Of a stretch of DNA of 22,420 nt, positions 1 to 14,992 are shown one piece after another. The notes under the pieces are model-generated. The model had not been told where the DNA came from and searched no databases. It saw nothing but the letters and a program-made list of their open reading frames with translations. This stretch comes from Myxococcales bacterium (GTDB lineage Bacteria > Myxococcota_A > Polyangia > Fen-1088). Numbering within the stretch: the first letter of the stretch is position 1; each line of letters starts with the position of its first letter. The position numbers and the translations under genes are program-made. Location: NCBI GenBank assembly GCA_003170035.1, contig PMZX01000496.1, positions 1 to 22,420 of the forward strand. The letters run 5' to 3'.

Positions 1-2
1 TT

Positions 3-290
3 CACGTTGACAAGTTCCGCCGCACGCCCACCGCCTCTGGCCGCAGGCGGCGGCGAGGACTGGCTGAACTGATCGAGACTGAACTGATCGAGACTGAACT
101 GATCGAGACTACCTTGGCGGGAACCCGATGGGGTAGACTGCGCCCTGTGGTCGAGACACGCCTTTGCCGACACGCCGACGGTGCCAGGACGCGCAGAACG
201 CAGCCCGCAAGGGTGGGCTCACGGCCACAGGTGCGCGGTGCCGCGTCGTGCTGTAGAGGTTCTCGGACGCCCCCCCTTCGAATCGCTTAG
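3..290 (+). other. Possible 3' tail of an upstream open frame; otherwise gene-poor flank
   Basis: Reading frame 3 on the plus strand is open from the left edge of the window to a TAG at 288-290. Its first part is Arg-rich and runs through the three 15-bp tandem repeats, which encode ELIET three times. The part after the repeats reads like non-coding sequence: Arg- and Pro-rich with no recognisable motif. It could be the end of a gene that starts outside the window, or a chance open frame in high-GC DNA. Nothing recognisable as a gene was seen in the rest of the 1-524 interval. That interval also holds the tandem repeat and, near 448-482, a sequence resembling one end of the dispersed repeat found at 5567. 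Confidence 0.2.
66..110. repeat. Three tandem copies of a 15-bp unit
   Basis: The unit gaactgatcgagact occurs three times without change at 66-80, 81-95 and 96-110, with a partial unit just before. The length is a multiple of three, so an overlapping reading frame would stay open. There are no unique spacers, so it is not a CRISPR. It looks like a small slippage-type minisatellite. Confidence 0.9.
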
Positions 291-447
291 GCACCAGGCC
301 CACCAGATGCGATCATCGCGATGAGAAATTGGAGCGTGGCCGGCAGAATTGGTCGCCACTTTTCGCGCGCTCAGGCCCGCAGATTCAAGCTATGTGTCCC
401 CACGAATTCATGCCAGAATTCCCGCGATCTATTTCCGGACACCAAGG

Positions 448-482
448 GTGAAGGAAAATGGCACCTAGAATGACTATCCACT
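448..482 (+). repeat. Possible degenerate copy of the dispersed ~115-bp repeat (one end only)
   Basis: The stretch ggtgaaggaaaatggc followed by gaatgactatcc resembles the right end of the repeat at 5567-5679, which reads ggtgaaggcaaaatggc and then gaaacgactatgctcc. Roughly three quarters of positions agree if a few single-base gaps are allowed. The left arm of the inverted repeat and the rest of the element are not recognisable. If real, the copy lies about 40 bp upstream of the NACHT gene, which would then be bracketed by direct copies. Chance similarity is not excluded. Confidence 0.35.
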
Positions 483-524
483 GGAGACCCCGCTAATCAG
501 AACTCGCGGGGAAAAGGAGTTGTC

Positions 525-3500
525 ATGACCTTCAGCCGCACCATCCGCCTCTTTGTCAGCTCAACCTTCAGAGACCTCAAGGCCGAGCGCGATGCGTTGC
601 AGTGCGAGGTCTTTCCGCGCCTCAAACAGCTTTGCCTGTCCAAGGGGCTGCGCTTCCAGGCGATTGACCTCCGCTGGGGGATCAGCGAGGAAGCCGGGCG
701 CGACAACAAGACTATGCGGATCTGCCTGCGCGAACTGTGCCGCTGCCAGCAGGACCGCCCCAAGCCCAACTTCCTCATCCTGCTGGGCGACCGCTATGGC
801 TGGCGGCCCTTACCCGAGATCATCCCGGCGGCGCTGTTCGAGAAACTGGCCGCGGCACTACAAGCAACCCATCCCAACGCGGCCCAGCTTCTCCAGAAGT
901 GGTATCTCCTCGACAAAAACGCCGTGCCGCCCGTCGCCGAACTTCAGCCCCGCGGTGATGACGCAAGCTGGCCCGAGCAAGTCGAGACGCCGCTCCTCGG
1001 TGCGTTGGAACAGGCGGCGCAGACGCTAGGGTTGGATCTGGAAAAGGAAGGCGTGACCATCGGCGCTTCGGCGACCGAGCAGGAGATCATCGAGGGTGCG
1101 CTGAAGATCCCCGACGCCGCCACGCACGTGCGCGCCTTCTTCCGCACCATCGACGACTTGCCGAACAACCCGCCGCTCAAGGATTACGTGGACCTCGGCT
1201 CCGACGGACATCGAGACACACTGGCCGCAGAACGGCTCGCCGCTTTGAAGGATCGGATCCATCACCACATCGGCGACAGAAGCGTGTGCCGTTACCGCGT
1301 TCCCTGGCGCGGCGACGGAATCAGCGCCGACGATCTGAAGGAGTTTTGCATACAAGCATGGAAGCAGTTGAGCGAAGTCGTGACCCAGCAAATCGACGCG
1401 CTCAAAGCGGTGCCGTCTGAACTATTGGAGGAGCAGGCGCACCAGGATTTCGGCAAGGAACGCTGCCGCCGTTTTGTGGGACGCGGTGAATCGTTGAAGC
1501 GCATCGCTGTTTACTTGCGCCAAGGATCGGACAAACCATTGGCCGTGATTGGCCCTTCCGGTTCGGGTAAGTCAGCCGTGATGGCTAAAGCGGTGCAAGC
1601 GGCCGGTCAGGAGAATTCCAAGGCCCAGATCATCGCCCGCTACATCGGCATCACGCCGGAATCTTCCGATTTCATACAAATGCTCCGCAACCTGGTCGCC
1701 GAAATCCGCCGGCGCTATCCGGTGCCTGTGGCAAAGGATGCCGGCTCCGGTGAAGATGGCAAAGCGAAGCCCGGCGATGCCGAAATCCCCTTCGAATGCG
1801 ACCCGTTAATCGACGCGTTTCACGAAGCCTTGCAGCGGCCAACTGCCGACCAGCCGCTATGGATCTTCCTCGATGCTCTCGATCAGTTGACGGCAAGTCA
1901 TCAGGCATACGCTCTGGCGTGGCTACCCGGAAAACTCTCTGAACACGTCCGCCTCGTCGTCTCCGCTGCGTTGCCGAAAGCGACTGTAGCTGGGGTCGCT
2001 GAACCCGAATCAACTGCGAGCAGCGATCGCAACTCCACCGACCCTCGTCCCGCGATCATTGCCGCGCTTACCTCACGGCTGGAAACTGCTCAGCGCGTTA
2101 TGCTGGCTCCACTGAGCATCGCGAACGGCGAGCAGATGCTGACGAACTGGCTGGATGATGTCCATCGCACACTCCAAGAACCGCAGCGCAGGACCATCAT
2201 CAAAACCTTTCAAGTCGAAGGCAGTCCACTCTGGCTCCACACGGCCACGAATGAAGCGATGCATCTTGCCTCATGGCAGCCCGCGCCCTCGTTCGCGCCC
2301 ACGACGCCGGAGTTGCTGGGACAGGTTCTGGATCGCCTATCGAAGGGAGAAGAACACGGCGAGAAGCTCGTCTCCCACACCTTGAGTTACCTCGCCTGCG
2401 CCCGGCACGGCTTGGCCGAGGACGAGATCCTCGACATTCTGAGTGCCGACAAAGAAGTCATGGCTGATTTCCGGCGACGTTCACCAGACTCGCCTAAGAC
2501 GGATTGCCTCCCGGTATCGGTATGGGTGCGGCTGCATGGCGACCTCGCCTTCTACCTCGCCGAACACCAAGCCCAAGGAGTCAGCCTGCTCGGTTTTTAC
2601 CACCGAAGTTTTCTAGAGGTCGTGATAGCGTCTTGCCTAGCTGCTAGTGAAATTCGTCTGACGCGGTACGGAACCCTTGCGACCTACTTCGGTGCCCAGC
2701 CGCTCCTTTTCCACCGCGCCGCAGGCATCAGCTACAACCTTCGAAAACTCTACGAGCTGCCGTATCAGCGGACGATGGCCGCGACTTGGGACGCTCTCGA
2801 AGCCGTGCTGACGGATATTGATTTCATCGAAGCCAAGAGCCGCGCCGGAATGTTGTTCGATCTCACAAGCGACTACATCTGCGCCGAGTCGGTTTGGCCG
2901 GGACAGGAGGAAGAGAGGCAGAAGGAGCGGAAACGCGAGCAAAGGGTGAAGAAGTACGTGGATGCGCTGATCGCGTACAGCCTGGCTCACACCACACAGC
3001 GCGAGGGACGGGATGTCAAGATTCCGCCGCTGCCCGAGCCGCCGCCTTCGGTCACATGGACGAGCAAGCCGGAAGTCACGGATGCCGGGCGCGAATGGAC
3101 ACCGCTGGAGCGTGTGAAGATATGGAGCCAGTTCGTTGGCACGCATATCTGGCAACTCGCGAATGGGAAGGAATCTGTTTTTCAAATTGCGTGGAACAGC
3201 GCGGCATCTGGGCCGATTGCTGAGCGAGTCGCCGAAATAGAACGTGCGGGGAACGGCCCTACGGGAGAATGGCTCGGGCTGCGGAACCGGCCGACATTCA
3301 CGCCGAAACCTGCTTGCCTGAAAGTGCTCGCAGGGCATACGGGCATAGTCAATGCCGTCTCCATCACCGCCGATGGCGGGCGGGTGGTCTCTGGGAGCGC
3401 GGACAGCACTGTTCGCGTGTGGGACCTAGCCACCGGCGAGTGCCTGAAATCGCTGGAAGGACATACGGAACCGGTCCACGCCGTCTCCATCACCCTCGAC

Positions 3501-5537
3501 GGTCAGCGGGCGGTTTCGGGAAGCTTCGACACCACCCTTCGCGTATGGGAACTAGCGTCAGGAAAGTGCCTGAAAGAGCTGGTAGGACATACGGACTATG
3601 TAAATGCCGTCTCCATCACTCCCGATGGCGGGCGGGCGATCTCGGGAGGCGGGGGGCAGCGCAAGGACAATACTCTTCGCGTGTGGGACTTAGCGACTGG
3701 TGAGTGCTTGCATGTGCTGGCAGGGCATACAGGTGAAGTCCACGCCGTCTCTATCGCTCCCGACGGCAGGCGCGCGGCATCAGGAAGCCGGGATGAAACT
3801 CTTCGCGTGTGGGACCTGGCAACTGGCGAGTGCCTTCGAGTGCTGGCAGGGCATACAGGCGAAGTCTACGCCGTCTCTATCACTCCCTACGGCAGGCGCG
3901 CGGTCTCAGGAAGCTTTGACCATACTCTCCGTGTGTGGGACCTAGAGACCGGTGAATGTCTGAACGTGCTTAAAGGGCATACGAGCGGAATCCTTGCCGT
4001 TTCCGTCACCGCCGATGGGGGGTGGGCAATATCAGGAAGCTATGACAGGACTCTTCGTGTGTGGGACCTGGCGACCGGCGAGTGCTTGAAAACGCTGGAA
4101 GGTCATACGTACTATGTCCAAGCCGTTTCCATCACCCCCGACAGCCGGTGGGCGGTCTCTGGGAGTTGGGACAAGACCATTCGGGTGTGGGACTTGGTAA
4201 ACAGCGAGTGCTTGCACGTTCTGGACGTGCATACGCGCGATGTCCACGCCGTCTCCATCACCCCCGACGGCAGGCGGGCAGTCTCAGGAAGCGCGGACAA
4301 CACCCTTCGGGTGTGGGACCTAGCGATCGGCAGGTGCCTACAGGTGTTGGAAGGACATACTAGCGGGGTCAATGCCGTCTCCATCACCCCCGACGGTCGG
4401 CAGGCGGTCTCGGGGAGCAATGATAGCACTCTTCGCGTGTGGGACCTGGCGACCGGCGAGTGCCTGAAAGTCTTGGAAGGACATACCAACGGGGTCAATG
4501 CCGTCTCCATCACCCCCGACGGTCGGCAGGCGGTCTCTGGAAGCGGAGAGTATAAAACCTCTGAAGATATCCGCGTGTGGAACTTGGTGACCGGGAAGTG
4601 CCTGCACGTGATGAAGGGACATGCGCGCCCAATCGCTGGCGTCTTCATCACGCCTGACGGCGAGCGGGCGGTTTCGATGGGCCATGATTTTACTCCCCGC
4701 GCGTGGGACTTAGCGACCGGGAAGTGCCTGCACGTGCTGGAAGGGCACACGAGCTATGTCTACGCCGTCTCCATCACCCCCGACGGCAAGCGGGTAGTCT
4801 CAGGAAGCGCGGACAACACCATTCGGATGTGGGACTTGGCGACCGGAAAGTGCCTGCACGTGCTGGAAGGCCATACCAAGAGGATCGATGCCCTCTCCAT
4901 CACTCCTGACGGCAGGCGGGCAGACTCGGGGGAGGGGGTATTCACTAGTGGAACTCTTCGCGTGTGGGACTTGGCGACCGGAAAGTGTTTGCACGTATTG
5001 GAAGGGCATAGGGGTCCGATCCAAACCCTCTCCATCACTTCTGACGGCAGGCGGGCGGTCTCAGGAAGCTATGACAGGACTCTTCGCGTGTGGGACCTGG
5101 CGACCGGCGACTGTATCATGGTGTGTGCAACGGAAAGTGCGGTCACCTGTTTGGCAGTTTACAGTACCAGTTTAGTAGTCGGCGAGGAGAGCGGCCGTGT
5201 CGATATCGTAACTATTGAGAACGGCTGTATGGATAGACCAATCATCACAGCGGTGCGGCTCAAGCTCCTTGAGCAAAAATCGTGGGACACCTACCTCACC
5301 GCCCTCTGCGACGCTTGCGGCCGGCGTTTCCAGATCCCCGTCGCCATTCTCGACACCATCGCCGCCATCACCCGCAACGTCCACCTTGACCCGGACGACT
5401 CCCCTTCCCTGAAGCTGCCCGCCGAGGCGTCGGACGAGCCGCGGCTGCTTAGCGAGTGCCCGCTCTGCCACCAGCCGATCAAGTTCAACCCATTTGTGGT
5501 CGACAATCGGCCTCGATCAAAGGGGGACGTCCATTAG
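525..5537 (+). CDS. DUF4062-NACHT-WD40 STAND NTPase with C-terminal zinc-ribbon-like tail
   Basis: The protein has 1670 residues, and an AAGGAG ribosome site at 514-519 supports the ATG. Residues 4-95 match DUF4062 (RLFVSSTFRDL near the start, LGDRYGW near 87). A NACHT-type NTPase follows, with Walker A GPSGSGKS at 343-350 and Walker B LWIFLDALDQL at 445-455. A helical region typical of NACHT winged-helix segments comes next (YLACARHGLAEDEIL, then FYHRSFLEVV near 690). Residues 931-1529 form 14 WD40 repeats of about 42 residues, enough for two seven-bladed propellers, followed by a degraded repeat. The tail has paired cysteines at 1595/1598 and 1645/1648, probably a zinc ribbon. NACHT/STAND proteins are signal-activated ATPase switches, and bacterial members include antiphage sensors; DUF4062-NACHT-WD40 also occurs in animal NWD1/TEP1-like proteins. 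A defence or self/non-self sensing role is inference. It stands alone, with no partner gene beside it, and its base composition looks less GC-rich than the genes after 10.5 kb. Confidence 0.93.
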   Translation: MTFSRTIRLFVSSTFRDLKAERDALQCEVFPRLKQLCLSKGLRFQAIDLRWGISEEAGRDNKTMRICLRELCRCQQDRPKPNFLILLGDRYGWRPLPEIIPAALFEKLAAALQATHPNAAQLLQKWYLLDKNAVPPVAELQPRGDDASWPEQVETPLLGALEQAAQTLGLDLEKEGVTIGASATEQEIIEGALKIPDAATHVRAFFRTIDDLPNNPPLKDYVDLGSDGHRDTLAAERLAALKDRIHHHIGDRSVCRYRVPWRGDGISADDLKEFCIQAWKQLSEVVTQQIDALKAVPSELLEEQAHQDFGKERCRRFVGRGESLKRIAVYLRQGSDKPLAVIGPSGSGKSAVMAKAVQAAGQENSKAQIIARYIGITPESSDFIQMLRNLVAEIRRRYPVPVAKDAGSGEDGKAKPGDAEIPFECDPLIDAFHEALQRPTADQPLWIFLDALDQLTASHQAYALAWLPGKLSEHVRLVVSAALPKATVAGVAEPESTASSDRNSTDPRPAIIAALTSRLETAQRVMLAPLSIANGEQMLTNWLDDVHRTLQEPQRRTIIKTFQVEGSPLWLHTATNEAMHLASWQPAPSFAPTTPELLGQVLDRLSKGEEHGEKLVSHTLSYLACARHGLAEDEILDILSADKEVMADFRRRSPDSPKTDCLPVSVWVRLHGDLAFYLAEHQAQGVSLLGFYHRSFLEVVIASCLAASEIRLTRYGTLATYFGAQPLLFHRAAGISYNLRKLYELPYQRTMAATWDALEAVLTDIDFIEAKSRAGMLFDLTSDYICAESVWPGQEEERQKERKREQRVKKYVDALIAYSLAHTTQREGRDVKIPPLPEPPPSVTWTSKPEVTDAGREWTPLERVKIWSQFVGTHIWQLANGKESVFQIAWNSAASGPIAERVAEIERAGNGPTGEWLGLRNRPTFTPKPACLKVLAGHTGIVNAVSITADGGRVVSGSADSTVRVWDLATGECLKSLEGHTEPVHAVSITLDGQRAVSGSFDTTLRVWELASGKCLKELVGHTDYVNAVSITPDGGRAISGGGGQRKDNTLRVWDLATGECLHVLAGHTGEVHAVSIAPDGRRAASGSRDETLRVWDLATGECLRVLAGHTGEVYAVSITPYGRRAVSGSFDHTLRVWDLETGECLNVLKGHTSGILAVSVTADGGWAISGSYDRTLRVWDLATGECLKTLEGHTYYVQAVSITPDSRWAVSGSWDKTIRVWDLVNSECLHVLDVHTRDVHAVSITPDGRRAVSGSADNTLRVWDLAIGRCLQVLEGHTSGVNAVSITPDGRQAVSGSNDSTLRVWDLATGECLKVLEGHTNGVNAVSITPDGRQAVSGSGEYKTSEDIRVWNLVTGKCLHVMKGHARPIAGVFITPDGERAVSMGHDFTPRAWDLATGKCLHVLEGHTSYVYAVSITPDGKRVVSGSADNTIRMWDLATGKCLHVLEGHTKRIDALSITPDGRRADSGEGVFTSGTLRVWDLATGKCLHVLEGHRGPIQTLSITSDGRRAVSGSYDRTLRVWDLATGDCIMVCATESAVTCLAVYSTSLVVGEESGRVDIVTIENGCMDRPIITAVRLKLLEQKSWDTYLTALCDACGRRFQIPVAILDTIAAITRNVHLDPDDSPSLKLPAEASDEPRLLSECPLCHQPIKFNPFVVDNRPRSKGDVH
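3315..5111 (+). repeat. Fourteen tandem ~126-bp WD40-encoding units
   Basis: Each unit encodes about 42 residues with the pattern CL-x-VL-x-GHT, AVSITPDG, AVSGS, T-x-RVWDLATG. The framework is almost invariant both at protein level and, by eye, at DNA level (gccgtctccatcac recurs in most units). Differences concentrate in the two or three residues after GHT and in the loop before RVWDL. Units 3, 10 and 13 carry short insertions in that same loop. Such uniformity suggests recent amplification or ongoing gene conversion between blades. Confidence 0.9.
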
Positions 5538-5566
5538 GAAATAGGTTGCCACTTCCCTCTTTCCTC

Positions 5567-5679
5567 TATTGGGATAGTTTGGACGTGTAGGTGAATGTAG
5601 TTTACGTAAGATCTGTTATCAGCCATTTTGCAGATGCGATCCGGTGAAGGCAAAATGGCGCTTGAAACGACTATGCTCC
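5567..5679 (+). repeat. Dispersed ~115-bp repeat, copy A
   Basis: This is one of three closely similar copies; the others are at 8208-8323 (inverted) and 10352-10469. It begins about 30 bp after the stop of the NACHT gene. It contains a perfect 10-bp inverted repeat, gccattttgc at 5622-5631 and gcaaaatggc at 5650-5659, separated by 18 bases. The left part carries two imperfect tandem copies of a GTAGTTGACGTA-like word. A short frame (starting MQMRSGEGKM) crosses the hairpin, but changes between copies alter the residues, so coding is doubtful. It may be a non-autonomous mobile element or a recombination site. Confidence 0.9.
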
Positions 5680-5757
5680 AACGAGAACACGACCAGGGTT
5701 CGCGACGTGTACATCAATCAGACTCAGTGAGCGCCTTTTCAGGTGCGCGGGCCTCCG
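5678..5757. repeat. Diverged duplicate of the 6508-6588 segment
   Basis: Starting at the right edge of repeat copy A, this stretch resembles 6508-6588. It shares ccaacgagaac exactly, then caggg-tcgc-acg, ctca-tgagcg and cgggcct-cga in the same order. The second copy covers the 3' end and downstream flank of the lipoprotein gene at 6549. Here the corresponding minus-strand frame meets an early stop, so this looks like the decayed tail of a paralogous gene. Confidence 0.5.
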
Positions 5758-5790
5758 AGGTGGGACAACCAGCGAATCACGGTCGCCGGT

Positions 5791-6423
5791 TCACTTGCAA
5801 CGCGGAGTCGAGGTTCCCGTGTCACACTTGGCTACGGTCGCCGGCGCACAGGAATCAACCTCGCCTTCAGACGCCAAGCAAGCCTGGGAAGAGCATGTGC
5901 AGCTCGGTGCCGTGTAGTCGCGGCAGCAATGTTGCCCAGCAACCACAGGACAGGTTGGCACTGGGGTGTAGCTATCATACTCAAGACCGAACGAGATAAC
6001 GTTGGCACACATGCAATCCTGCGACGAGGGATCGCTCTTGCAGACATAGGCTTTGCACGTACAGAAGACCGTGCCCTGGCAGCACAGCCCCTGCTCATCG
6101 GCGCCCGTTACCACCGAGTTCGTGTCACAGGTCGCGACGTTGTTAACTTGCGGCTGGGCCTGGGTGCAGGAACAACCGTCCAGGAGTTGCTGGCAGGTGA
6201 GTTGGATCCCGCTGGTATCGGCCGCCTTTGCGACGTCGGCTGCCATCGTGGCATCGGCTGGCTTTGCCGAGGCCCCGGTGTCCTGGCCCACCGGGGATTG
6301 GGTACTGCTGTCTTCACCCTGTGGCTTGTTTCCGCTGCCCGAACCGCAGGCCGAACCCGCCAGAGCGACAACCAGGCACCAGAGCGAGTCCAGGTGACTG
6401 TGGCCGGAGTGGTCTCGATGCAT
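5791..6423 (-). CDS. Cys-rich putative lipoprotein of unknown function
   Basis: The predicted protein has 210 residues from the ATG at 6423; a GTG two codons upstream is an alternative, and an AGGAT-like ribosome site lies just ahead. A short N-terminus is followed by a hydrophobic segment (LWCLVVALAGSAC) ending in Cys26, a plausible though not canonical lipobox because Gly occupies position -3. A Ser/Thr/Ala-rich linker comes next, then about 120 residues dense in cysteine (CCQGT, CTCKAYVCK, CMC, HCC, CTCSSQAC). This is typical of disulfide-stabilised surface proteins in myxobacteria, but I do not recognise a family. It is the most downstream of three minus-strand reading frames between repeat copies A and B. 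Confidence 0.65.
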   Translation of the reverse strand: MHRDHSGHSHLDSLWCLVVALAGSACGSGSGNKPQGEDSSTQSPVGQDTGASAKPADATMAADVAKAADTSGIQLTCQQLLDGCSCTQAQPQVNNVATCDTNSVVTGADEQGLCCQGTVFCTCKAYVCKSDPSSQDCMCANVISFGLEYDSYTPVPTCPVVAGQHCCRDYTAPSCTCSSQACLASEGEVDSCAPATVAKCDTGTSTPRCK

Positions 6424-6548
6424 GGTCACATCCTAGATCACGGGACGCGTTCGCTGCAATTCCGGTCTGCCGGGTTGTCCGTCGGCCGGATTGCAAGAGG
6501 CATGATACCAACGAGAACCAGGGCTCGCCACGCGGGCAACATCCGGGC

Positions 6549-7238
6549 TCAATGAGCGGCTCCCGAGGCGCACGGGCCTTCGATGCAAGATAGTTGGGCT
6601 ATCCATGCATCCCCGCAAGACGGTCCGTGGCCGTTGCCCGGATCGGGAAGCAATGGGCACGACTGGGGGCTATCTGCCCCGAAGATGCGCGAAACCGTAA
6701 CCGGCGGTAGCTGGTCCGGCCTCGGTGCCGCAAAGACATCCGAAGAGGGCCCACCGCGTCCACTATTCTGGAGCGCCAGCAGCCAGGTTCCTGAACAACC
6801 AGTCGTTGACGCCGCGCGTTCCGAAAAGGTTATGATGTCCAGTTCTTCACCTGCTGATATCCCCCCACCGTACCCAGGTGAGAACGGGCCAAGATCATAT
6901 GACGCACCCAAGGACCAGCCCGGTGGCGGCGCGCACTCCCCGCTGTAGAGCCAACATCCAGTGTCGCCCATTGAGATCCCATAGCGCTTGCGCCCCACAG
7001 TGAACTCGATGATGGAGCCCACCCCGAGCCCGTCAAGTGAACCGCACGATAGACCTTCACCGACCACCAGCGGTGGATGTCCACCATAAAGAGCCAACGT
7101 GCTGTTTGCGTCGTATCGTTCCAAGAGCTGCGCCGAGAAGCTGTTCCCCGGCTTGCCGGCGTTCACACAAGGATCACGATACGGTCTGGTACAACCGGTG
7201 GCAACAAGACACAAGGCGGCCAATGTCAGCCTAGGCAT
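6549..7238 (-). CDS. Putative lipoprotein of unknown function
   Basis: The predicted protein has 229 residues. The ATG at 7238 places a good lipoprotein signal at the N-terminus (MPRLTLAALCLVATGC, lipidation at Cys16). The mature part is Gly- and Pro-rich with eight or more cysteines and no family motif that I recognise. No clear ribosome site was seen, so the start rests on the signal peptide. It reads in the same direction as the Cys-rich lipoprotein at 5791, with a gap of about 125 bp. A decayed duplicate of its 3' end appears at 5678-5757. Confidence 0.6.
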   Translation of the reverse strand: MPRLTLAALCLVATGCTRPYRDPCVNAGKPGNSFSAQLLERYDANSTLALYGGHPPLVVGEGLSCGSLDGLGVGSIIEFTVGRKRYGISMGDTGCWLYSGECAPPPGWSLGASYDLGPFSPGYGGGISAGEELDIITFSERAASTTGCSGTWLLALQNSGRGGPSSDVFAAPRPDQLPPVTVSRIFGADSPQSCPLLPDPGNGHGPSCGDAWIAQLSCIEGPCASGAAH

Positions 7239-7430
7239 CAATTGCAAGTACCATCAATGGAAGCACCACCGGGCAGCTGGAGAGTCGCCGCGTCATGCAC
7301 GACAGGCGACGACTCTCCATAACACTCTAGCGTCAGCAGGGCCACCGCGATGCTTGGCGTGGCATGGCCCCACGACCAATTGCCCCAGAACAGGCTTGCT
7401 CGAAGCGTCTGCAGCACCTCGTCTCGCACC

Positions 7431-8252
7431 CTAGTATATTATTATGCCCGAGCACGTTCCGTTGGTCGGGTCCACGTATTCCCCCAAGGGACAGGTCATG
7501 CCGCAGAAGTTTCCTTGCGGGCTGTACGACGGACACTGGTCGTTGGCCTGGTGCAGGAGATAGACGCGGCAGACATCGCACGCTGAATACCCCGCATCTG
7601 TCATGGTCTGGCTCAGGCCCTGGAAGAACGTGTCTTCCTCCAACAGCGCATTCGCTCCCTCAAGTGCCAACCAGTTGCGCACAACCTTTGGAAGCGCAGA
7701 CCCTGGAAGCGCCACGCCTTCCTCGGGCACGGGCGGGTTGAATAGTGTAAGTACTTGAGCAGGGTTGATCTGGTTGAGGTGCGTCGAGCCATTGGAGTCG
7801 ACCTGCCCGGAAGCCGATTTCGCCCACGCGCCGCAGTTGCCCGGCACGTCTACCGTTGACGAGTCTGCCATCGAGTTACCATCAAATGCGTCATGCAGAA
7901 TGCTTGCAACGCGTGCGATCTGTTTCGTGTAGCCATCCCAACTGGAAACGTCCGTCTGGAGCTTCTGTACGCTCGTGCCTGCAATGAGGCCGCTTCCCCC
8001 AAAGTTGTCCTCGACCGAGCGCGTGCCGTTGCACCAGTTCATCTTGTCGTGCCAGGTGGATGTACCGGTGCCGAATGATGCTTCCGGGTGGAAGTAGTTC
8101 GTCCCCCCCGCGACCTGCGCCGCGAAGAAGTCTGCCCAGGCCTCGTTGATATACGCATCGGCGTCGTTGCTCATGTCGAGCTTCAGTATCTGCTTGCCAA
8201 CCGTGGTGAGCATAGGCATTTCAAGCGCCATTTTGCTTTCACCGAATCGCAT
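7431..8252 (-). pseudogene. 5'-truncated zinc-metallopeptidase-like gene ending inside repeat copy B
   Basis: Gene-like sequence runs from about 8207 down to the TAG at 7431. The segment INEAWADFFAAQVAGG near its start resembles the region of gluzincin peptidases that holds the third zinc ligand (glutamate in an E-x-x-x-D/F context), normally tens of residues after HExxH. Here no HExxH and no signal peptide precede it, because the frame runs straight into repeat copy B, which supplies chance starts (ATG at 8252, TTG at 8258). The C-terminus (DVCRVYLLHQANDQC, then CGMTCPLGEYVDPTNGTC) is Cys-rich and looks like a natural end. I infer a secreted metallopeptidase that lost its 5' half when the repeat arrived or recombined. 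An alternative is a different secreted protein with a chance match to the peptidase motif. Confidence 0.55.
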
Positions 8253-8323
8253 CTGCAAAATGGCTGAGAACAGATCTTACGTCAACTACGTCAACCTACA
8301 CCCCAAAACTATCCCTATACCCG
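8208..8323 (-). repeat. Dispersed ~115-bp repeat, copy B (inverted)
   Basis: This is the reverse complement of the elements at 5567 and 10352, with only scattered substitutions. The inverted-repeat arms are at 8227-8236 and 8255-8264. The tandem word is clearest here: ttacgtcaa and ctacgtcaa are adjacent at 8277-8294. With copy C it forms an inverted pair around the GH44 gene, and its hairpin-proximal end interrupts the metallopeptidase remnant. Confidence 0.9.
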
Positions 8324-8449
8324 CGAACGCGCTTGCGTCGATTTCGCGGATCGATATTCTACGCGGCGTTAGGAAGTCCGGTCGCCCGCGTCCGCGGGAC
8401 AGCCAGGTGGTCATTGCCGACCGTTCATTTCATCCGACGGGAGTTCGCC

Positions 8450-10318
8450 ATGCGTTCTGTGAGGACAGTCGAAGCATTGTTCGTGGTGGCCACGCTCTTT
8501 GCGTTGCAGACAACCTCGTGCTCTTCGAAGAGTGGTGGTTCCGGCGGTGGTAGCGGCGGGCAGGGAGGCAAGGGCGGGGCCACGACCGGCAACGGCGGTT
8601 CGTCCGCGAGCGGCGGCGCGACGAGCAGCGGCGGTCAGGTCGGCTCGGGCGGCACGACGATCACCCCTGCCTGCACGCCTTCGTGCACCAACAAAACCTG
8701 CGGAAGTGACGGTTGCGAGGGTACCTGCGGCGGCTGCCCACCCGCGCAGATGTGTGGCGCCAACGGCACCTGCCAAATCAAGAGCGGTTCGGGTATCCTC
8801 ATCGATGCGAGCGCTCAGCTCACGCCGATTTCGCCGGATATCTACGGAATTGGATTCGCGGACGATGAGTCGGCCAAGGTCACCACGCTCAATCGCTCGG
8901 GGGGGGACTCGGCTGAGACCTACAACTGGCAGAAGGACATCACGGGCAAGGCTGCATGGTGGAACTGCGCGAACTACGCGGGAGGGGGAAGCCCCAGCGA
9001 TGCGGACAAGTTCGTGCAAGCCAACAAGTCCAAGAACCTGAACACGCTGATGACGATTCCGATCACGGGCTGGGTCGCGAACGTTGCCACGTCGTCGGAC
9101 AGCACCTCCAGCTCGCTCCTCGGTCAGCCCCTCAGCTTCTGCAACTATCCCCAGAAGGCCGACGGCACGCTGGTCCCGTCGCTGACCTGCTGCCAAGCGA
9201 TCAACACGCAGGAATCCGTGCTCGTCGACAATGGTTCCAAGAACCTGGACACGAGCTTCATGGGCAACTGGGTCTCACATCTCGCGTCGACGTTCGGGAC
9301 TGCAGCCAGCGGCGGCGTGAAATACTACCAGCTCGACAACGAACCCGACAACTGGCAGAACAACCGCCCGGACATCTACCCGACGTTGTATCCCCCGGGA
9401 ACTGGCTGTATGGACTACGCAGTACCCATCACGTCCGGCAACGAGGCGGGCGTGTCGCCGAACGATGACATCATCAATCGCTCGATTGCGTATGCGGCGG
9501 CGGTCAAAGCTGCGGATCCGACGGCGCAGGTGCTGTTCTTGTCGGTCATGAATCCCGACGATCTCGTCAACCTGATGCAAACCGAATGCGGCGTGGGTAC
9601 GTGGGATTCGAGCAAGAAGGTTCCCTATAGCGTCACGAATCCCTATGCCATGGCGATGATGGCGAAAGCAGCACAGTACGAAGCCGCCAACCACAAGAGG
9701 ATTTTCGACTGTCTGGACACGCACTACCCGGCGGACGCGAACGACTTCTGGCAAAGGGACTCGTTGTCGCGTGTGCAAGGCTGGATTCGTGCGACGTACC
9801 TGGGCACGGGGATCTGCGTGAGCGAGTACAGCGTCTCGAACGACGCCACCGACCTTACCGCTACAACCCAGCAAGCCGACTTTCTTGGCACCTTCGGCGT
9901 GGTCGGCGTGCGACTTGCGGCGTACTGGGGCAGCCTGGTGGCGGACGACAAGACGACCCACAAGCCGGTGTACAACGCCTTCCTGATGTTCCGGAACTAC
10001 GACGGCGCAGGCGGCAAGTTCGGCAGCGTATCGGTCGGTGCCCAGAGCGGCTATGCGAACGTCCACGCCTATGCGGCGACGGACTCCGCGACCAGCCCGA
10101 CGAAGTTGTGGATCATGCTGGTCAACCGGGGGACCAGTGCGCAGAGCAACATGACGATCACGATCAACAACTTCACCGCTGCTTCGACCGCAAAGGCGTA
10201 TCAATCCGTCAACGGCGCCGCGCCGGCGGCGGCTGCCGACGTGGCGATTTCGAACGGCTCGATCTCGGGGCTTTCGATCGCCGCAAACACGATCACGCTG
10301 ATTGCGGCTGCGCGCTGA
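8450..10318 (+). CDS. GH44-type glycoside hydrolase lipoprotein (putative endoglucanase/xyloglucanase)
   Basis: The ATG at 8450 follows CGGGAG at 8438-8443 and gives 622 residues; a longer frame from 8333 lacks support. The N-terminus is a lipoprotein signal (LFALQTTSC), followed by a Gly/Ser linker and a Cys-rich module (CTPSCTNKTCGSDGC) common on myxobacterial surface enzymes. The catalytic part resembles glycoside hydrolase family 44: RSGGDSAETYNWQ near its start, the proposed acid/base Glu298 in YQLDNEPDNW and the proposed nucleophile Glu459 in CVSEYSV. A beta-rich C-terminal domain follows. GH44 enzymes cleave beta-1,4-glucans such as cellulose derivatives and xyloglucan. The gene lies alone between inverted repeat copies B and C. 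The family assignment is by motif, and a related clan A family is possible. Confidence 0.82.
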   Translation: MRSVRTVEALFVVATLFALQTTSCSSKSGGSGGGSGGQGGKGGATTGNGGSSASGGATSSGGQVGSGGTTITPACTPSCTNKTCGSDGCEGTCGGCPPAQMCGANGTCQIKSGSGILIDASAQLTPISPDIYGIGFADDESAKVTTLNRSGGDSAETYNWQKDITGKAAWWNCANYAGGGSPSDADKFVQANKSKNLNTLMTIPITGWVANVATSSDSTSSSLLGQPLSFCNYPQKADGTLVPSLTCCQAINTQESVLVDNGSKNLDTSFMGNWVSHLASTFGTAASGGVKYYQLDNEPDNWQNNRPDIYPTLYPPGTGCMDYAVPITSGNEAGVSPNDDIINRSIAYAAAVKAADPTAQVLFLSVMNPDDLVNLMQTECGVGTWDSSKKVPYSVTNPYAMAMMAKAAQYEAANHKRIFDCLDTHYPADANDFWQRDSLSRVQGWIRATYLGTGICVSEYSVSNDATDLTATTQQADFLGTFGVVGVRLAAYWGSLVADDKTTHKPVYNAFLMFRNYDGAGGKFGSVSVGAQSGYANVHAYAATDSATSPTKLWIMLVNRGTSAQSNMTITINNFTAASTAKAYQSVNGAAPAAAADVAISNGSISGLSIAANTITLIAAAR

Positions 10319-10351
10319 GAGGTGCGTACAGGTGCAGTCGGTTCAAGCGCC

Positions 10352-10469
10352 CGGGTATAGGGGACAGCTTGGGTGTGTAGGTTGATGTAGTTGACGTAAG
10401 ATCTGTTCTCAGCCATTTTGCAGATGCGATCCGGTGAAGGCAAAATGGTGCTTGAAACGACTATGCTCC
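10352..10469 (+). repeat. Dispersed ~115-bp repeat, copy C
   Basis: This copy has the same orientation as copy A and is inverted relative to copy B. Similarity runs from cgggtatagg to ctatgctcc. The inverted-repeat arms are at 10412-10421 and 10440-10449; the last base of the right arm is changed, leaving nine matched pairs plus a possible G-U pair. It starts 33 bp after the GH44 stop codon and ends five bases before the stop of the convergent membrane-protein gene. Confidence 0.9.
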
Positions 10470-10474
10470 GCCGG

Positions 10475-11875
10475 TCAGTTGTTTCCGTTCGGGAAGAACG
10501 AATCGTCGTAGCTGAACTGGGTCAAGCGATCGAAGGTGATGGCGCCGAAAAGGTTGACCGCCACCGCCCAGATCAAGAGCACCTTCCACAGGACCGTGAG
10601 TCGGCGATTTCCCACCGAGAGCAGCATGATGAAGAAGACCATGTAGTCCAGGCTGAAACGGTAGCCGAACTGGATGTAGCCCGAATTCTGGTAGAGCAGC
10701 GAGGGCAGGGCAGTGAAGAGGATGGTGATCCACAGACCGCGCGCCAGCGGGCTGCGCTCGGCCGGCGCCACGGTGTAGGCCAGATTGGGCGAGGTCACCA
10801 GCAGGGACATGCCGTGCGCTCCGACCTTCACGTAGGGGTAGTTCGCGAGAAAACGCGGCAGCAGCACCAGCGCGCAGGCCAGGTTGCGCGACAGGAAGTG
10901 CAGATTGAAGAGGCCCCATTTCTGAATCCGGTCCTGCCACGCGATGTTCAGGTACTCGTGACCGAAGACGTAGAACTTGCCGAAGCGCAGGTAATTGTGG
11001 GTCAGCAGCGCGGCCAGGATCGCCCCGGCCGCCAGGGAAAAGCGCAAGAGCTTGCCCAGCAGGCCGGCCGGTAGGCCCTGTTTGGGCAACGAACGCAGGC
11101 GTCCCCAACCGCCAGTCACGCGCACGGTTTCGAAGAGGAAGAGCGGGAACATGAATCCGAGCGGCGTACGTGTGGCAAAGCCCAGGCCGAGGAACAGCCC
11201 GGCCAGGATGGGCCGCGACGCCTCGATCGCGGCCCAGGCGTAGCCGATCACGCAGGTCACGGCGATGACGTGGGCGGTGTACCAGACCTGACCCAGCACC
11301 GAGCTGTAGAAATGGACCGAGCCCGCTCCCAGCAGAACGGTCAGCCAGAGATCGTCGGCCACGCTGCGCTTGCTGTAGCCGCGACGTCGCAGGTTGCGCA
11401 GCAACAGGAAGAGCAACACCGGATTGAACGCCGCCCATATGACGGTGAAGAGCACGTCGTTGAACGCCAGATGCCAGATGGCCACGAAGGGCAGCATCAG
11501 CACGCCGGGCAGCGGTGGAAAAGAAACGTAGCGGATCCAGGAACGCGAGACGATCTCGTCCTTGTCCACGGTCAGCGACGGGCCGCGCAGGGGATAGAAA
11601 CGATCGGTGGGGCCGGTGCCGTGAAACTGACCCTTGAGGGTGCGGCCATCCTTGAGGTGCAGAACCTCGACCCGCGCCCAGTCGTTTTCGTTGGGCGGGC
11701 TGGCGGCCAGGTCCAGGCGGCCATGCAGCCAGCCGTCGGCCAGGTAGGCGAAATGGTTGTAGGCGGAATGCTGGCGAAGCCGCCCGTCCGAGGCGCCCAG
11801 ATACGCGCCCGCGAACACGAGGTAGATGAGGGCCAGCCCCCAGCGGCTGGAGAACAGACGTTCGACCCGAGTCAT
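10475..11875 (-). CDS. Polytopic membrane protein, GT-C glycosyltransferase-like
   Basis: The protein has 466 residues. Its ATG overlaps the stop of the upstream gene (ATGA, 11872-11875), so translation is probably coupled. About ten hydrophobic segments are visible, including one at the N-terminus, a long pair around VLMLPFVAIWHLAFNDVLF and several near the C-terminus. The first extracytoplasmic loop is long and polar, as in GT-C enzymes that use polyprenyl-phosphate sugars, but I see no decisive catalytic motif. Placement directly after a GT39-like gene suggests joint work on sugar transfer at the envelope. The 3' end abuts repeat copy C yet appears complete. Confidence 0.75.
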   Translation of the reverse strand: MTRVERLFSSRWGLALIYLVFAGAYLGASDGRLRQHSAYNHFAYLADGWLHGRLDLAASPPNENDWARVEVLHLKDGRTLKGQFHGTGPTDRFYPLRGPSLTVDKDEIVSRSWIRYVSFPPLPGVLMLPFVAIWHLAFNDVLFTVIWAAFNPVLLFLLLRNLRRRGYSKRSVADDLWLTVLLGAGSVHFYSSVLGQVWYTAHVIAVTCVIGYAWAAIEASRPILAGLFLGLGFATRTPLGFMFPLFLFETVRVTGGWGRLRSLPKQGLPAGLLGKLLRFSLAAGAILAALLTHNYLRFGKFYVFGHEYLNIAWQDRIQKWGLFNLHFLSRNLACALVLLPRFLANYPYVKVGAHGMSLLVTSPNLAYTVAPAERSPLARGLWITILFTALPSLLYQNSGYIQFGYRFSLDYMVFFIMLLSVGNRRLTVLWKVLLIWAVAVNLFGAITFDRLTQFSYDDSFFPNGNN

Positions 11876-13809
11876 GGCGGCAACGGCTCCTGGCGCGGCG
11901 GAAGCGCCGCGCGCTGATAGACCACAACGAAAGGCACGCCCTCGTGGGCATACACCTGGGCTGGCCGGGTGGTCTGATAGGACTCCCAGTGCAAGTACTC
12001 ATAGACCGCGAAATGCTTTTCCAAGATCACGACGCCAAGATCGGCCTGCGCCACCAGGGGCTCGCCCACGCCCACATCGCCAATCGCCACCGGCAGCCGG
12101 CCATCGCGAGCATACATGATGAGGGCGTCGTGAAGCACGTCATGCCAGTAGATGTGGTTGGAGGGGGGACGATGCGCCGTTATCCAGGGCAGGAGCGGCA
12201 GCACGGAATAGCCCCAGAATTGCCGGTTCATGCCCAGGGAAGCGCCGCCGGCGAAACCGCCGGCCAGAAGATTATAGTGGCCCAGACCATCGGGGTGCGA
12301 GCGCTGGGTCTCGGTCACCGCCGGCAGGCACAGCAGGACGACCAGGGCCGCGGGTAAGGCCTGGCGAAGGCGCGAAGGACGCACGAGAGATGTCGCCTGA
12401 CGCGTGATCCAGGCCAGGCCCACGCCGGCCACCATGGCCAAGAAGGGCATAGCAGGCAAGAAGTGCTTCACCCCGCCGAAGATCGGCGTCGAGGGAAGCG
12501 CCAGGATGCCGAGCGGCCCCAGGATCTGCACTGCGAGGAATATGCCGGGCGCCAGGTCGACATCCGCGCCCGGACGCAGCCACGAGGCGCGCGCGCCAGG
12601 CTCGGGCGGCTCGGAATTGACCAGAGAGGGCTCGTCGCTTGCTTCACTTTTCCGGCGCCGGCGGGCCAGCACCACCGTACCTGCGGCGGCCAGAGCCAGG
12701 GTGGTGACCGGCACGGTGAACGCCGTCGAGACAAAGGGAAACGTCGCACGCAAGAGCCACTGACCGGTCTGCTTGGGCGACGGGGGCAGGTTCCAGTTTT
12801 GGCCCAGGTACTCGAAGTTGTAGTGCTCGTGTTGCGTGTGCCGCTGCACCCACTCGCGCGTGCGCGCCACCGGCGCGTGCCACAGCCAGGGCCAGAGCGC
12901 GAACAGGACGATGGGGCCCAGGCTGGCCATTGATAGGAAGGCCAGGGGCACGCGCGGCGGGCGCAGACGGAGAAATCGTCGCGTGGGGAGCCCGCCGGCG
13001 CCGCCGGCGGCGCACCATCGCGGGAGGGTTTGGGAACCCTTTGAGGGTTCCCATCTGAAATCGTTCCGCCGGATCCACAGGTAGTGGACCAGCAAGAAAC
13101 AGGGAATCAGCCAGGCGTTGTGTTTGGTGGCCAGGGCGAAGCCATAGAAGACCCCGCACAGGATGCCCCAGCGAGGCGAGCGCAGCGATTTCCAGTAGGC
13201 GAGCGCCACCAGCAAGGCCATCACTGCGATGGGCGCATCGAAGCACGAGATCTGGGCGTGGAAGAAGTAGTGTGGCTGCGCGACCGAAAGCACAGCTGCG
13301 CCGGCCGCGGCCCAGGGACCGACAAAACGGCGCGCGAAGCCGTAGACCAGCGCCACGCCGAGGCCGGCCAGCAGAATGGCGGGAAAGCGAAAGGCGGTCG
13401 ACTCGCGCGCAAACAGGGGCAGAGTCCGATGCTTGCCGTGCACTGCGATCGGGTGCAGGCCGCGCTTGGGCCCCGCGCAGTCGCAGCGATGGAACAGGCG
13501 CCACGACAGACCGTACAACGTCTTCATCAGGGGTGGGTGCTCGTGGTTGTCGCCCCAGAAGCCGTCGACGGTCGCGCGCGCGAAGGCGCGTCCGGGCTTA
13601 CCGGCGCGCACGGCCTCTCCCAGCGTTTCGAACCAGCCCCAGTAGCGCTCGCCGGCGCGGAAGTACTGCGCCTCGTCCCGGGCCAGGCCTTGCCGGCCCT
13701 CCACCGCCAGCATCCAGCCGGATGTTGCCAGCGCGAGCGCCAGCGGCACGATCCACCGGCGTTCCCACCAGCGGCGGGGCGCTTGCCCGATCTGATCCGC
13801 GCCCGCCAT
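11872..13809 (-). CDS. GT39/ArnT-like polytopic glycosyltransferase
   Basis: The protein has 645 residues from the ATG at 13809, whose first base is the last base of the preceding stop (TGATG). A longer open frame to 14271 only overlaps the upstream gene. One hydrophobic helix (21-36) precedes LARDEAQYF with Asp45-Glu46, the acidic pair expected in the first periplasmic loop of GT39/PMT and ArnT enzymes, and then NHEHPPL at 88-94, also typical. About ten further membrane segments and a soluble C-terminal domain follow. The reaction is probably sugar transfer from a lipid-linked donor to a protein or lipid, with the acceptor unknown. Residues of roughly 249-285 are low-complexity and encoded by two palindromes, an apparent insert in a loop. 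Confidence 0.82.
   Translation of the reverse strand: MAGADQIGQAPRRWWERRWIVPLALALATSGWMLAVEGRQGLARDEAQYFRAGERYWGWFETLGEAVRAGKPGRAFARATVDGFWGDNHEHPPLMKTLYGLSWRLFHRCDCAGPKRGLHPIAVHGKHRTLPLFARESTAFRFPAILLAGLGVALVYGFARRFVGPWAAAGAAVLSVAQPHYFFHAQISCFDAPIAVMALLVALAYWKSLRSPRWGILCGVFYGFALATKHNAWLIPCFLLVHYLWIRRNDFRWEPSKGSQTLPRWCAAGGAGGLPTRRFLRLRPPRVPLAFLSMASLGPIVLFALWPWLWHAPVARTREWVQRHTQHEHYNFEYLGQNWNLPPSPKQTGQWLLRATFPFVSTAFTVPVTTLALAAAGTVVLARRRRKSEASDEPSLVNSEPPEPGARASWLRPGADVDLAPGIFLAVQILGPLGILALPSTPIFGGVKHFLPAMPFLAMVAGVGLAWITRQATSLVRPSRLRQALPAALVVLLCLPAVTETQRSHPDGLGHYNLLAGGFAGGASLGMNRQFWGYSVLPLLPWITAHRPPSNHIYWHDVLHDALIMYARDGRLPVAIGDVGVGEPLVAQADLGVVILEKHFAVYEYLHWESYQTTRPAQVYAHEGVPFVVVYQRAALPPRQEPLPP
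12998..13052. repeat. Pair of palindromes inside the GT39-like gene
   Basis: A perfect 16-bp palindrome, gcgccgccggcggcgc, lies at 12998-13013. A perfect 8-bp stem, gggaaccc at 13032-13039 and gggttccc at 13045-13052, lies close by with a five-base loop. Both are in the coding frame and encode a Gly/Ala/Arg/Pro-rich stretch that interrupts otherwise hydrophobic GT39-like sequence. The pattern resembles REP-like or palindromic coding inserts, though other genomic copies cannot be checked here. Confidence 0.75.
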
Positions 13810-14711
13810 CAAGTGCGCGCCTCCGCCGCAAAGCCGAGCGTGCGCGAGGTGGGGTCGTCGACGGTAATCTCGAAGCGCACGCTCTGCGACTGTCCCGCCA
13901 GCGCAGAAGTGTCGAACTTGCGCAGGGTCCAGCCGGTTAGGCTGCCAGCCTCGATGCGGCCTAGCTCGCGGCCCTGGACGAGCACGCGAAGACTGACGGT
14001 GCCCTTGCCCGACTTGCGCAGCCACACGTTGTGCAGCCCCGCACCCACGGCCAGTTCGCGCCCGAGAGGCACGCGATCGAATTCGATGACCGTGGTCGCC
14101 TGTCCCGCGGGCTGCGTGGACAGGGCCAGGTGCGGGCTGGTGTCGATCTCGAGCAATTCGGGCTTGACCGACTGGGACGGGAGCTCGGGGCACTCGAAGC
14201 GGTCGGGCAGGGGAGAGCACCAGTTGACCTGGCCCCCGAGTCCGACTCGCGAGACAGTGGCGCGGCTCCACTCGGCAACAAAATCGAACGACACCCGGGC
14301 TGCTGCCCGCTCGTAGCGGCGCAGGGTGAGTGCGCCGTGGCGACCCGACTGTGCCACGTGACCGCCTTCGGTTTCCGGCGCCCGCGCGCCCCGCTGCGCG
14401 ATCTCCCAGATGCGGCCAAAGCGGGCGGCATCGAGTCGCCCGGCCACGGCAAGCGGGATCAGATCGCCCAGGTGCATCCGCATCAGCGGGTCAGCCCAGT
14501 CTGGCGCTGTGACGATCAGATCGCCGGGCTGAAACCCAGCCCGAATCGCGGCGGTGGCCGCGCGCCAATCCCGGTCCGCAGGCGCGCGCAGGGGAGCCAG
14601 CAGCGCGTTTGCAGTCTCGACCAGGGCGAGCACGACGATGCCAGCGGCGCAGGCATAGGCCAGACGGCGGCGCCGGAAAGAATCTGCGTCGAAGATACTG
14701 CTCAACTTCAC
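13809..14711 (-). CDS. Membrane-anchored periplasmic protein, first gene of the glycosyltransferase operon
   Basis: With a GTG at 14711 the protein has 300 residues. It starts with a basic stretch (FRRRR) and one hydrophobic helix (LAYACAAGIVVLALVETANALL), giving an N-in, C-out anchor. The next 100 residues (RDWRAATAAIRAGFQPGDLIVTAPDWADPLMRMHLG) resemble the soluble C-terminal part of some GT39-like proteins, and the remainder looks like a beta-sandwich. No catalytic motif is recognised. The open frame continues upstream, without an ATG, into the 163-bp inverted-repeat element, and no ribosome site is evident, so the start is uncertain. The stop shares one base with the start of the GT39-like gene, which argues for a shared function in envelope glycosylation. 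Confidence 0.65.
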   Translation of the reverse strand: MKLSSIFDADSFRRRRLAYACAAGIVVLALVETANALLAPLRAPADRDWRAATAAIRAGFQPGDLIVTAPDWADPLMRMHLGDLIPLAVAGRLDAARFGRIWEIAQRGARAPETEGGHVAQSGRHGALTLRRYERAAARVSFDFVAEWSRATVSRVGLGGQVNWCSPLPDRFECPELPSQSVKPELLEIDTSPHLALSTQPAGQATTVIEFDRVPLGRELAVGAGLHNVWLRKSGKGTVSLRVLVQGRELGRIEAGSLTGWTLRKFDTSALAGQSQSVRFEITVDDPTSRTLGFAAEART

Positions 14712-14829: not shown

Positions 14830-14992
14830 TTAACACTACTGATTGAAATTCGGACCGAGCCGACGCGTCGCGAGGGCCCCGACCGCAACGAACGACGAGG
14901 GAGAATACTCGATGTATTTGACCGAGGAGTGAGGCGGCGGGCGGGGTCCGCAGCAGCGCCGGCGACGGGAGAATTTCAATCAGTAGTGTTAA
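14830..14992. mobile_element. 163-bp MITE-like element with perfect 22-bp terminal inverted repeats
   Basis: The left arm at 14830-14851 begins TTAACACTACTGATTGAAA, and the right arm at 14971-14992 is its exact reverse complement over 22 bases. The 119 bases between them are GC-rich and have no convincing gene. TTAA lies at both outer ends and could be part of the repeat or a target site. No other flanking duplication is evident. The element lies between the divergent genes at 14711 (minus) and 15013 (plus) and ends only 20 bp before the nitroreductase start, so it may also affect their expression. A long-range hairpin acting as a regulator is the alternative. Confidence 0.7.

Follow-up and report, generated by a model that had tools for sequence, protein, structure and literature searches.

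A dispersed ~110-120-nt repeat of Myxococcota, probably the right-hand end of an IS91-type insertion sequence

The repeat and its setting in the window

The 22,420-nt stretch of DNA analysed here, called the window throughout (contig PMZX01000496.1 of assembly GCA_003170035.1, Myxococcales bacterium), holds three near-complete copies and one right-end fragment of a short repeat, lying beside genes for a protein with WD40 repeats and a GH44-type glycoside hydrolase (Table 1). Comparison with related genomes suggests that this repeat is probably the right-hand (ori-side) end of an IS91-type (HUH/Y2) insertion sequence (IS) of the bacterial family, and that it also exists as an independent, non-autonomous element of ~110-120 nt, the solo unit. 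This reading is based on a fixed junction in several species and a second genus, sharp ends, the lack of target duplication, a tetranucleotide at the right end and the likeness of copies within genomes. The host genome (G000) is a metagenome-assembled genome (MAG) of 540 contigs, 77% complete; it was compared with its congeners G001-G006 and, among others, with G008, a 20-contig assembly from another genus.

An earlier note on the window had described three copies of a ~115-bp hairpin-bearing repeat. These were confirmed, in position and strand, by alignment and by profile search (E-values of 2.5e-35, 4.6e-34 and 5.7e-36 for copies 1, 2 and 3 respectively), and share a pairwise identity of 88-92% over ~110 nt; before refinement of the ends they spanned 5567/5570-5679 (+), 8208-8323 (-) and 10350/10352-10469 (+). 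Their placement, after the gene ending at 5537 (copy 1) and on either side of the GH44 gene (copies 2 and 3), was also as described. The right-end fragment, ~45 nt upstream of the gene start at 525, was absent from that note. The gene at 525-5537 had been called a NACHT gene, a label which the Pfam search did not bear out: the product carries DUF4062, a STAND-type AAA ATPase and WD40 repeats, and scored 17.3 bits against the NACHT model, below the cut-off of 26.7. The remark that the window lacks a transposase or integrase held in its transposase part for the 10 open reading frames (ORFs) scanned by Pfam, with none among the matches listed, which for the WD40 protein comprise 25 of its 50 families. 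To the right of copy 1, positions 5680-5760 and 6508-6590, ~830 bp further on, have by eye the look of a diverged duplicate (CCAACGAGAAC...GGGCC).

Table 1. Copies of the repeat, adjoining tetranucleotides and neighbouring genes in the window.
Feature	Position	Strand	Remarks
Right-end fragment of repeat	447..477	+	Ends CTAT; profile match E 0.017 in 463 kb
CCAC after right-end fragment	478-481	+	
Copy 1	5570..5674	+	Left end ~8 nt short; right end CTAT
GCTC after copy 1 right end	5675..5678	+	
Coding sequence (CDS)	7431..8207	-	Starts within a few nt of copy 2 right end
GCTC after copy 2 right end	8208..8211	-	GAGC on + strand
Copy 2	8212..8323	-	Full length; left end 8323 facing GH44 gene; right end 8212
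GH44-type glycoside hydrolase gene	8450..10318	+	Between facing left ends of copies 2 and 3
Copy 3	10352..10464	+	Full length; right end CTAT at 10464
GCTC after copy 3	10465..10468	+	

Association with IS91-type transposase genes, ends and distribution

Comparison of flanking DNA revealed that 135-400 bp directly left of the unit were common to six copies, and that this DNA contained the 3' portion of a transposase gene of the IS91 type together with a non-coding stretch which ends ...GGGCTTGTTTTCCC, after which the unit begins. The earlier note had proposed to look for an IS or recombinase sharing the ends of the repeat; the IS91-type transposase gene lies directly left of the unit. The DNA left of the unit in G001:C339, with the unit itself excluded, was used as a query against 20 genomes, scoring at most 38 first-look candidates per genome. 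Sixteen places were matched at E < 1e-10, of which nine, the place of the query itself included, extend to the junction. The left end of the unit follows in all nine (eight clearly, G003:C233 by only ~25 nt), a figure that is conditional, as an IS whose 3' end differs would go undetected in this comparison. Of the remaining seven, five were read and stop earlier or at a contig edge, and in the other two (G001:C202 and G006:C164) the match stops earlier. By BLAST, the IS end lies upstream of 10 of the 92 testable copies among 95.

The locus L115 represents a nearly complete element, with a left boundary near 760-808, a gene that occupies two open frames, non-coding DNA on its 3' side and then a 132-nt form of the unit; the second frame matched Pfam Y2_Tnp with an E-value of 2.9e-19, while the first was without a Pfam match. 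Y2_Tnp genes were present in 14 of the 20 genomes. In G008 a diverged unit follows the transposase gene immediately after CTTGTTTTCGCCC, and a search of that genome with this end gave 36 places, three of which have the IS upstream, the rest beginning later. A related fragment in G010 is, by eye, followed by another diverged form of the unit. A second Y2_Tnp subfamily (L149 in G005 and L150 in G003) lacks a full unit, and the homology of its two copies to each other stops at TTCGC[T/C]TAT, followed by GCTC or GCGC, which is the right-end motif of the unit. A full unit was not seen at most of the 18 Y2_Tnp loci where the downstream DNA was read, and the unit therefore belongs to one or two Y2_Tnp subfamilies. 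As in the IS91 family, the predicted parent element encodes a Y2/HUH transposase, its insertions appear to lack target duplications, and the right end appears to be retained while the left end is dispensable.

Alignment of 49 copies placed both ends of the ~110-120-nt solo unit sharply. Among 95 copies with E <= 1e-3 in 64 study sequences, mostly picked for holding a copy, the right end was intact in 88 and the left end in 57, a contrast which the better conserved right half of the search profile may inflate. The bases after the right-end CTAT were GCTC in 41, CCAC in 18, CCGC in 5, GCAC in 3 and others in 7 of the 74 scorable copies, so that GCTC, CCAC or CCGC accounted for 64/74, and 67/74 with GCAC included; the sequence beyond is variable. 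The units of G008 are mostly followed by ACGC or CCAC, and the tetranucleotides do not correspond to a GAAC/CAAG-type target like that of IS801. Target duplications, which the earlier note had suggested tabulating, were not found in 39 full copies, where the best direct repeat averaged 1.97 nt against 2.01 nt in shuffled sequences (equalled or exceeded in 181 of 300 shuffles).

The 10-bp inverted repeat of the earlier note is present, but as a family feature the hairpin did not stand: the nine stem pairs tested were all kept in only 11 of 58 near-full copies, with compensatory change nearly nil, and copies 1-3 folded not clearly better than shuffled DNA (z of -1.04, -0.36 and 0.54). These data indicate that the hairpin is not a conserved feature of the repeat. 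By eye, the ends of the unit share a short imperfect inverted match of ~8 nt (GGGTATAG / GGAGCATAG). Within the left half, the inward-lying TTACGTAAG/TTACGTTAG resembles the inner end of Tn3 inverted repeats; a second inverted end of that kind was not seen. At three places in G008, L154 (C9), L300 (C2 ~14.0 kb) and L303 (C8 ~34.1 kb), an unrelated IS-like end (GGGCTGCCGCGAAAAAAGTCGATCG...) recurs joined to a piece of the unit, its initial ~46 nt, with the junction just past TTACGTTAG.

In the host genome the repeat had 13 matches (E <= 1e-3), so that it is not confined to the three copies first described, and it was detected in 10 of 59 genomes searched. All ten genomes belong to the family of the host, a family of soil and wetland bacteria in which the repeat has multiplied, and comprise all seven of the host genus, one of a second genus and two of a third; outside the family it was found in 0/41 genomes. 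A pattern scan of a genome collection returned 33 stretches, the majority titled 'Myxococcales bacterium fen_...', some 'Proteobacteria bacterium Chersky', and one MAG contig each of Abditibacteriaceae and Acidobacteriaceae, possibly mis-binned. The fen MAGs presumably originate from Stordalen Mire. There was no match in viral contigs (scanned with one exact pattern), phages or plasmids.

With all genomes pooled, identity between copies was higher within than between genomes by 0.033, a difference reached in 0/1000 label permutations. Eight further near-full places in G008 were 97-99% identical to the query unit, which points to recent spread. Contig C1 of G008 (1.83 Mb) carries 14 unit matches, 13 of them on the + strand within 130 kb and the lone - match weak (E 0.0015); the clustered units at 94-222 kb (L292-L298) sit among ORFs of both strands. 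No link between unit orientation and replication strand was found by local GC skew, which was positive for 47 of 92 copies.

Breakpoints and unit-free sites

Synteny between the window and G001-G006 starts at 10470-10475, directly beyond copy 3, at 88-91% identity over the first ~530 nt. When positions 1-8400 were compared with the same genomes at E <= 1e-20, scoring 16 first-look candidates per genome, only short dispersed repeats were matched (95-295, 307-449 and the units), and the GH44 region gave matches of 68-76% on other contigs, among the matches listed. A G000-specific block therefore ends at the right end of copy 3, because congener synteny begins there and the left side has no counterpart. 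The earlier note had suggested that the repeat may mark recombination hot spots; at least one copy does lie at a breakpoint between species-specific and conserved DNA. The GH44 block was not present at the orthologous place in any readable congener, and as the left side is without a counterpart there was no two-ended empty site to compare; the DNA beside the copy 3 target in G001, sought elsewhere in the 77% complete G000, gave no match. At the other side of the GH44 gene, the right end of copy 2 adjoins a CDS which appears to be truncated: the one longer homologue found, on which this call rests (P0003, 361 aa, 44% identity), aligns from residue 128 and has 127 more N-terminal residues.

Elsewhere, four groups of non-IS copies have long shared right flanks with left flanks that are different or unreadable: G004/G006 (G005 and G000 nearby), two loci common to G003 and G005, and a pair of places in G003. 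The G000 contig of the G004/G006 group breaks off within the unit. On the left, long flanks were shared only where they were the IS itself and within a single group of truncated copies (L067, L125 and L129). The gap from the left end of the unit to shared DNA was 5.2 kb in G005 and 166 bp in G003. The asymmetry of left and right flanks fits the prediction of one-ended rolling-circle transposition, with the qualification that numbers are small and that some of the asymmetry could stem from recombination between copies.

Occupied and unit-free sites could be compared at three loci. One is the end of a PMT-like block (window ~14753), where a unit is present in G003 and G005, its right end adjoining ...GGCGAGC (other strand); the unit-free relatives G000, G001 and G006 have GAGC, and the unit-free G002 and G004 have GAGG. 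Directly at the 3' end of a conserved ORF of 604 codons, right-end remnants were found in G002 and units in G004 and G006; in G004 the stop codon of the ORF is, by eye, supplied by the end of the unit. G001 and G003 are without a unit there, G005 and G000 have units some 20-50 bp away, and all four lack GCTC at the exact point. The tetranucleotide may therefore be partly derived from the element. At the copy 3 locus a GCTC was seen by eye a few bases before the matching place in G001 and G006, two of the five readable congeners.

Several other repeats were encountered in the window. An 84-bp (28-codon) in-frame insertion at ~12974-13058, within the PMT-like gene (ORF 11875-14271, -), is absent from the aligned orthologues in G001, G002, G003, G004 and G006; the stretch ~12978-13060 has at least dozens of matches in G000-G006 at 89-97% identity. 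It resembles the intragenic palindromic elements of Rickettsia. A MITE-like repeat (miniature inverted-repeat transposable element) of ~162 bp at 14830-14992, with inverted ends of ~37 nt (TTAACACTACTGATTGAAATTC...), has at least dozens of matches in G000-G006 and one in G010 (79-98%), and is missing between the same two genes in G006. Two short dispersed repeats at 95-295 and 307-449 have matches in G003 and G005, the latter repeat stopping where the right-end fragment of the unit starts.

Proposed mechanism, alternatives and known systems

An IS91-type transposase would act in trans on the unit, nicking at its right end. Replication would proceed leftwards and usually stop at the left end of the unit (TGGGTATAG...), with insertion beside a GCTC/CCAC/CCGC-like site. 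Read-through beyond the left end, the least certain step, may carry the whole IS or other left-hand DNA, and would account for the foreign DNA on the left of units whose right ends meet conserved or truncated genes. The suggestion of mobilisation in trans made by the earlier note was supported, inasmuch as the repeat is dispersed and of a mobile type and is probably moved in trans. Its other proposal, a composite unit formed by inverted copies 2 and 3 around a single cargo gene, was not supported, because the 39 copies lacked duplications, neighbouring copies elsewhere varied in relative orientation and the unit stands behind IS91-type transposase genes.

Several observations weigh against an origin of the unit as the end of an IS91-type element. 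The comparisons are of mostly fragmented MAGs and transposition itself was unseen; the fixed left end of the unit inside the IS is unaccounted for, as is the clustering of G008:C1 units on one strand. In G001, G015 and G017 taken singly, within-genome identity was not above the between-genome mean. The junction count is conditional, as noted, and among the 18 Y2_Tnp loci read downstream most are without a full unit. In the host genome, 77% complete, a matching IS91 3' end was not found and the three Y2_Tnp matches are all partial. At the unit-free sites, G002 and G004 have GAGG, and at the 604-codon ORF the missing GCTC speaks against a tetranucleotide that comes wholly from the host; the targets given for IS801, GAAC, GGAC, CAAG and CGAC (PMC3189936), differ from GCTC.

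The most serious competitor, which we consider quite possible though falling short of even chances, and which is compatible with an IS91 origin, is that most units are old and inactive and that homologous recombination between dispersed copies produced the breakpoints. In the pair G004 and G006 the unit and its right flank are orthologous (92%) and the left flank switches exactly at the left end of the unit, as such an exchange would leave it; most genomic IS801 fragments were judged by their authors to be products of reorganisation (PMC3189936). A crossover should, however, alter either side with equal frequency, and right-shared groups number four against one left-shared, small as these numbers are; the G008 places 97-99% identical to one unit also point to recent spread. 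The units could instead be independent elements into whose left end an IS91-type element inserts site-specifically, the two being partners. Solo units do outnumber IS-linked ones, and their left boundary is as sharp as the IS junction and identical to it. We regard this as unlikely, as the unit has a single orientation at all nine junction-reaching IS ends, a co-diverged unit is joined at the same junction to the diverged IS of another genus, and the second transposase subfamily ends with the right-end motif of the unit; moreover, the targets of IS801 are only tetranucleotides (PMC3189936).

The remaining explanations have little to recommend them. A classical MITE mobilised by a DDE transposase, with inverted ends and a target duplication, would account for a small, sharp-ended element in many copies with a short imperfect terminal match; it was dropped because target duplications are lacking, the linked transposase also being HUH and not DDE, and is very improbable. 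Integron attC sites are ~100-nt imperfectly symmetric repeats between genes, and a cassette array of such sites, slightly less probable again, drew some support from the several same-strand copies in G003:C34 and G008:C1 and from true integron integrases in the wider group, where 8 of the 18 genomes searched gave matches above the curated cut-off (L312, L313, L314, L317 and L316, the last at G008:C3:611396-612334). The ORFs between units at G008:C1 94-134 kb are 17 on the + and 18 on the - strand, and the G008 integrase is on contig C3, which holds 0/36 of the unit matches; the attC explanation was dropped because of these mixed strands and the unit-free contig. The GTTRRRY/RYYYAAC core was not seen by eye at the ends of the unit. 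Least probable of all is a conserved RNA, terminator or regulatory element, the possibility the earlier note had itself set against a mobile repeat: the copies in the window are intergenic and contain an inverted repeat, but Rfam gave no match at the repeat, and the stem is complete in too few copies (11/58), with folding near the shuffled level.

The end of an IS91-type element remains the preferred explanation, and its proposed steps have precedents, because right-end fragments, capture of upstream DNA and action in trans are all reported for IS801 (PMC3189936). In this IS91-family element of Pseudomonas syringae, pieces of 229, 360 and 679 nt with an intact right end were trapped after transposition and interpreted by the authors as the result of one-ended transposition; elements with 290-1431 nt of recruited upstream (left) DNA were trapped likewise, the transposase works in trans and proper inverted repeats are lacking (PMC3189936). 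The IS801 miniatures are the closest known system, both being short right-end pieces of an IS91-family element (PMC3189936). Here, unlike IS801, a single ~110-120-nt unit with a fixed left end occurs in many copies per genome and in several genera, is known from sequence alone, and is followed by GCTC, CCAC or CCGC and not by a GAAC-like tetranucleotide. The earlier note had thought that the family could be previously undescribed, which may hold for the sequence and does not for the kind, as right-end fragments of IS91-family elements are already known from IS801 (PMC3189936). The fixed unit, its copy number, its range across several genera and its other tetranucleotides appear to constitute a new variant, and no description of such units in Myxococcota was found in the open-access literature at title and abstract level.

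The ISCR elements are IS91-like too, with oriIS and terIS sides and variable DNA beside the element; in ISCR1 the variable genes lie on the oriIS side (PMC6218425), whereas most of the variable DNA around the present unit lies on the other side. The Helitron Helraiser shares an HUH transposase, one essential and one dispensable end and read-through into flanking DNA, and differs in being eukaryotic, in its RepHel protein and in the importance of an end-proximal hairpin (PMC4778049), the hairpin here not being conserved. In REP/RAYT systems, hairpin repeats are linked to a RAYT (Y1) tyrosine transposase; the unit, again, lacks a conserved hairpin. The attC sites resemble the unit in being ~100-nt, imperfectly symmetric and intergenic, and differ in the mixed ORF strands here, the G008 unit contigs without integrase and the core not seen by eye.

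IS91-like elements have been implicated in moving neighbouring genes, but the evidence that they do so by transduction is termed circumstantial in the Helraiser paper (PMC4778049). As the small right-end units are numerous, and as both occupied and empty sites are available from seven species in a single genus, the question of capture becomes testable, namely whether foreign blocks start left of units and end at the fixed right end. It is a tentative and rather doubtful suggestion that the family harbours a bacterial counterpart of non-autonomous Helitrons, in which a free-standing ori/ter unit of ~110 nt, mobilised in trans by an HUH transposase of the IS91 type, has repeatedly read through its left end and built species-specific blocks across the family; if true, the STAND-WD40 and GH44 genes would be such blocks beside conserved genes. 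The unit, its junction and its tetranucleotide together provide a sequence handle for annotating unexplained breakpoints in the family of the host.

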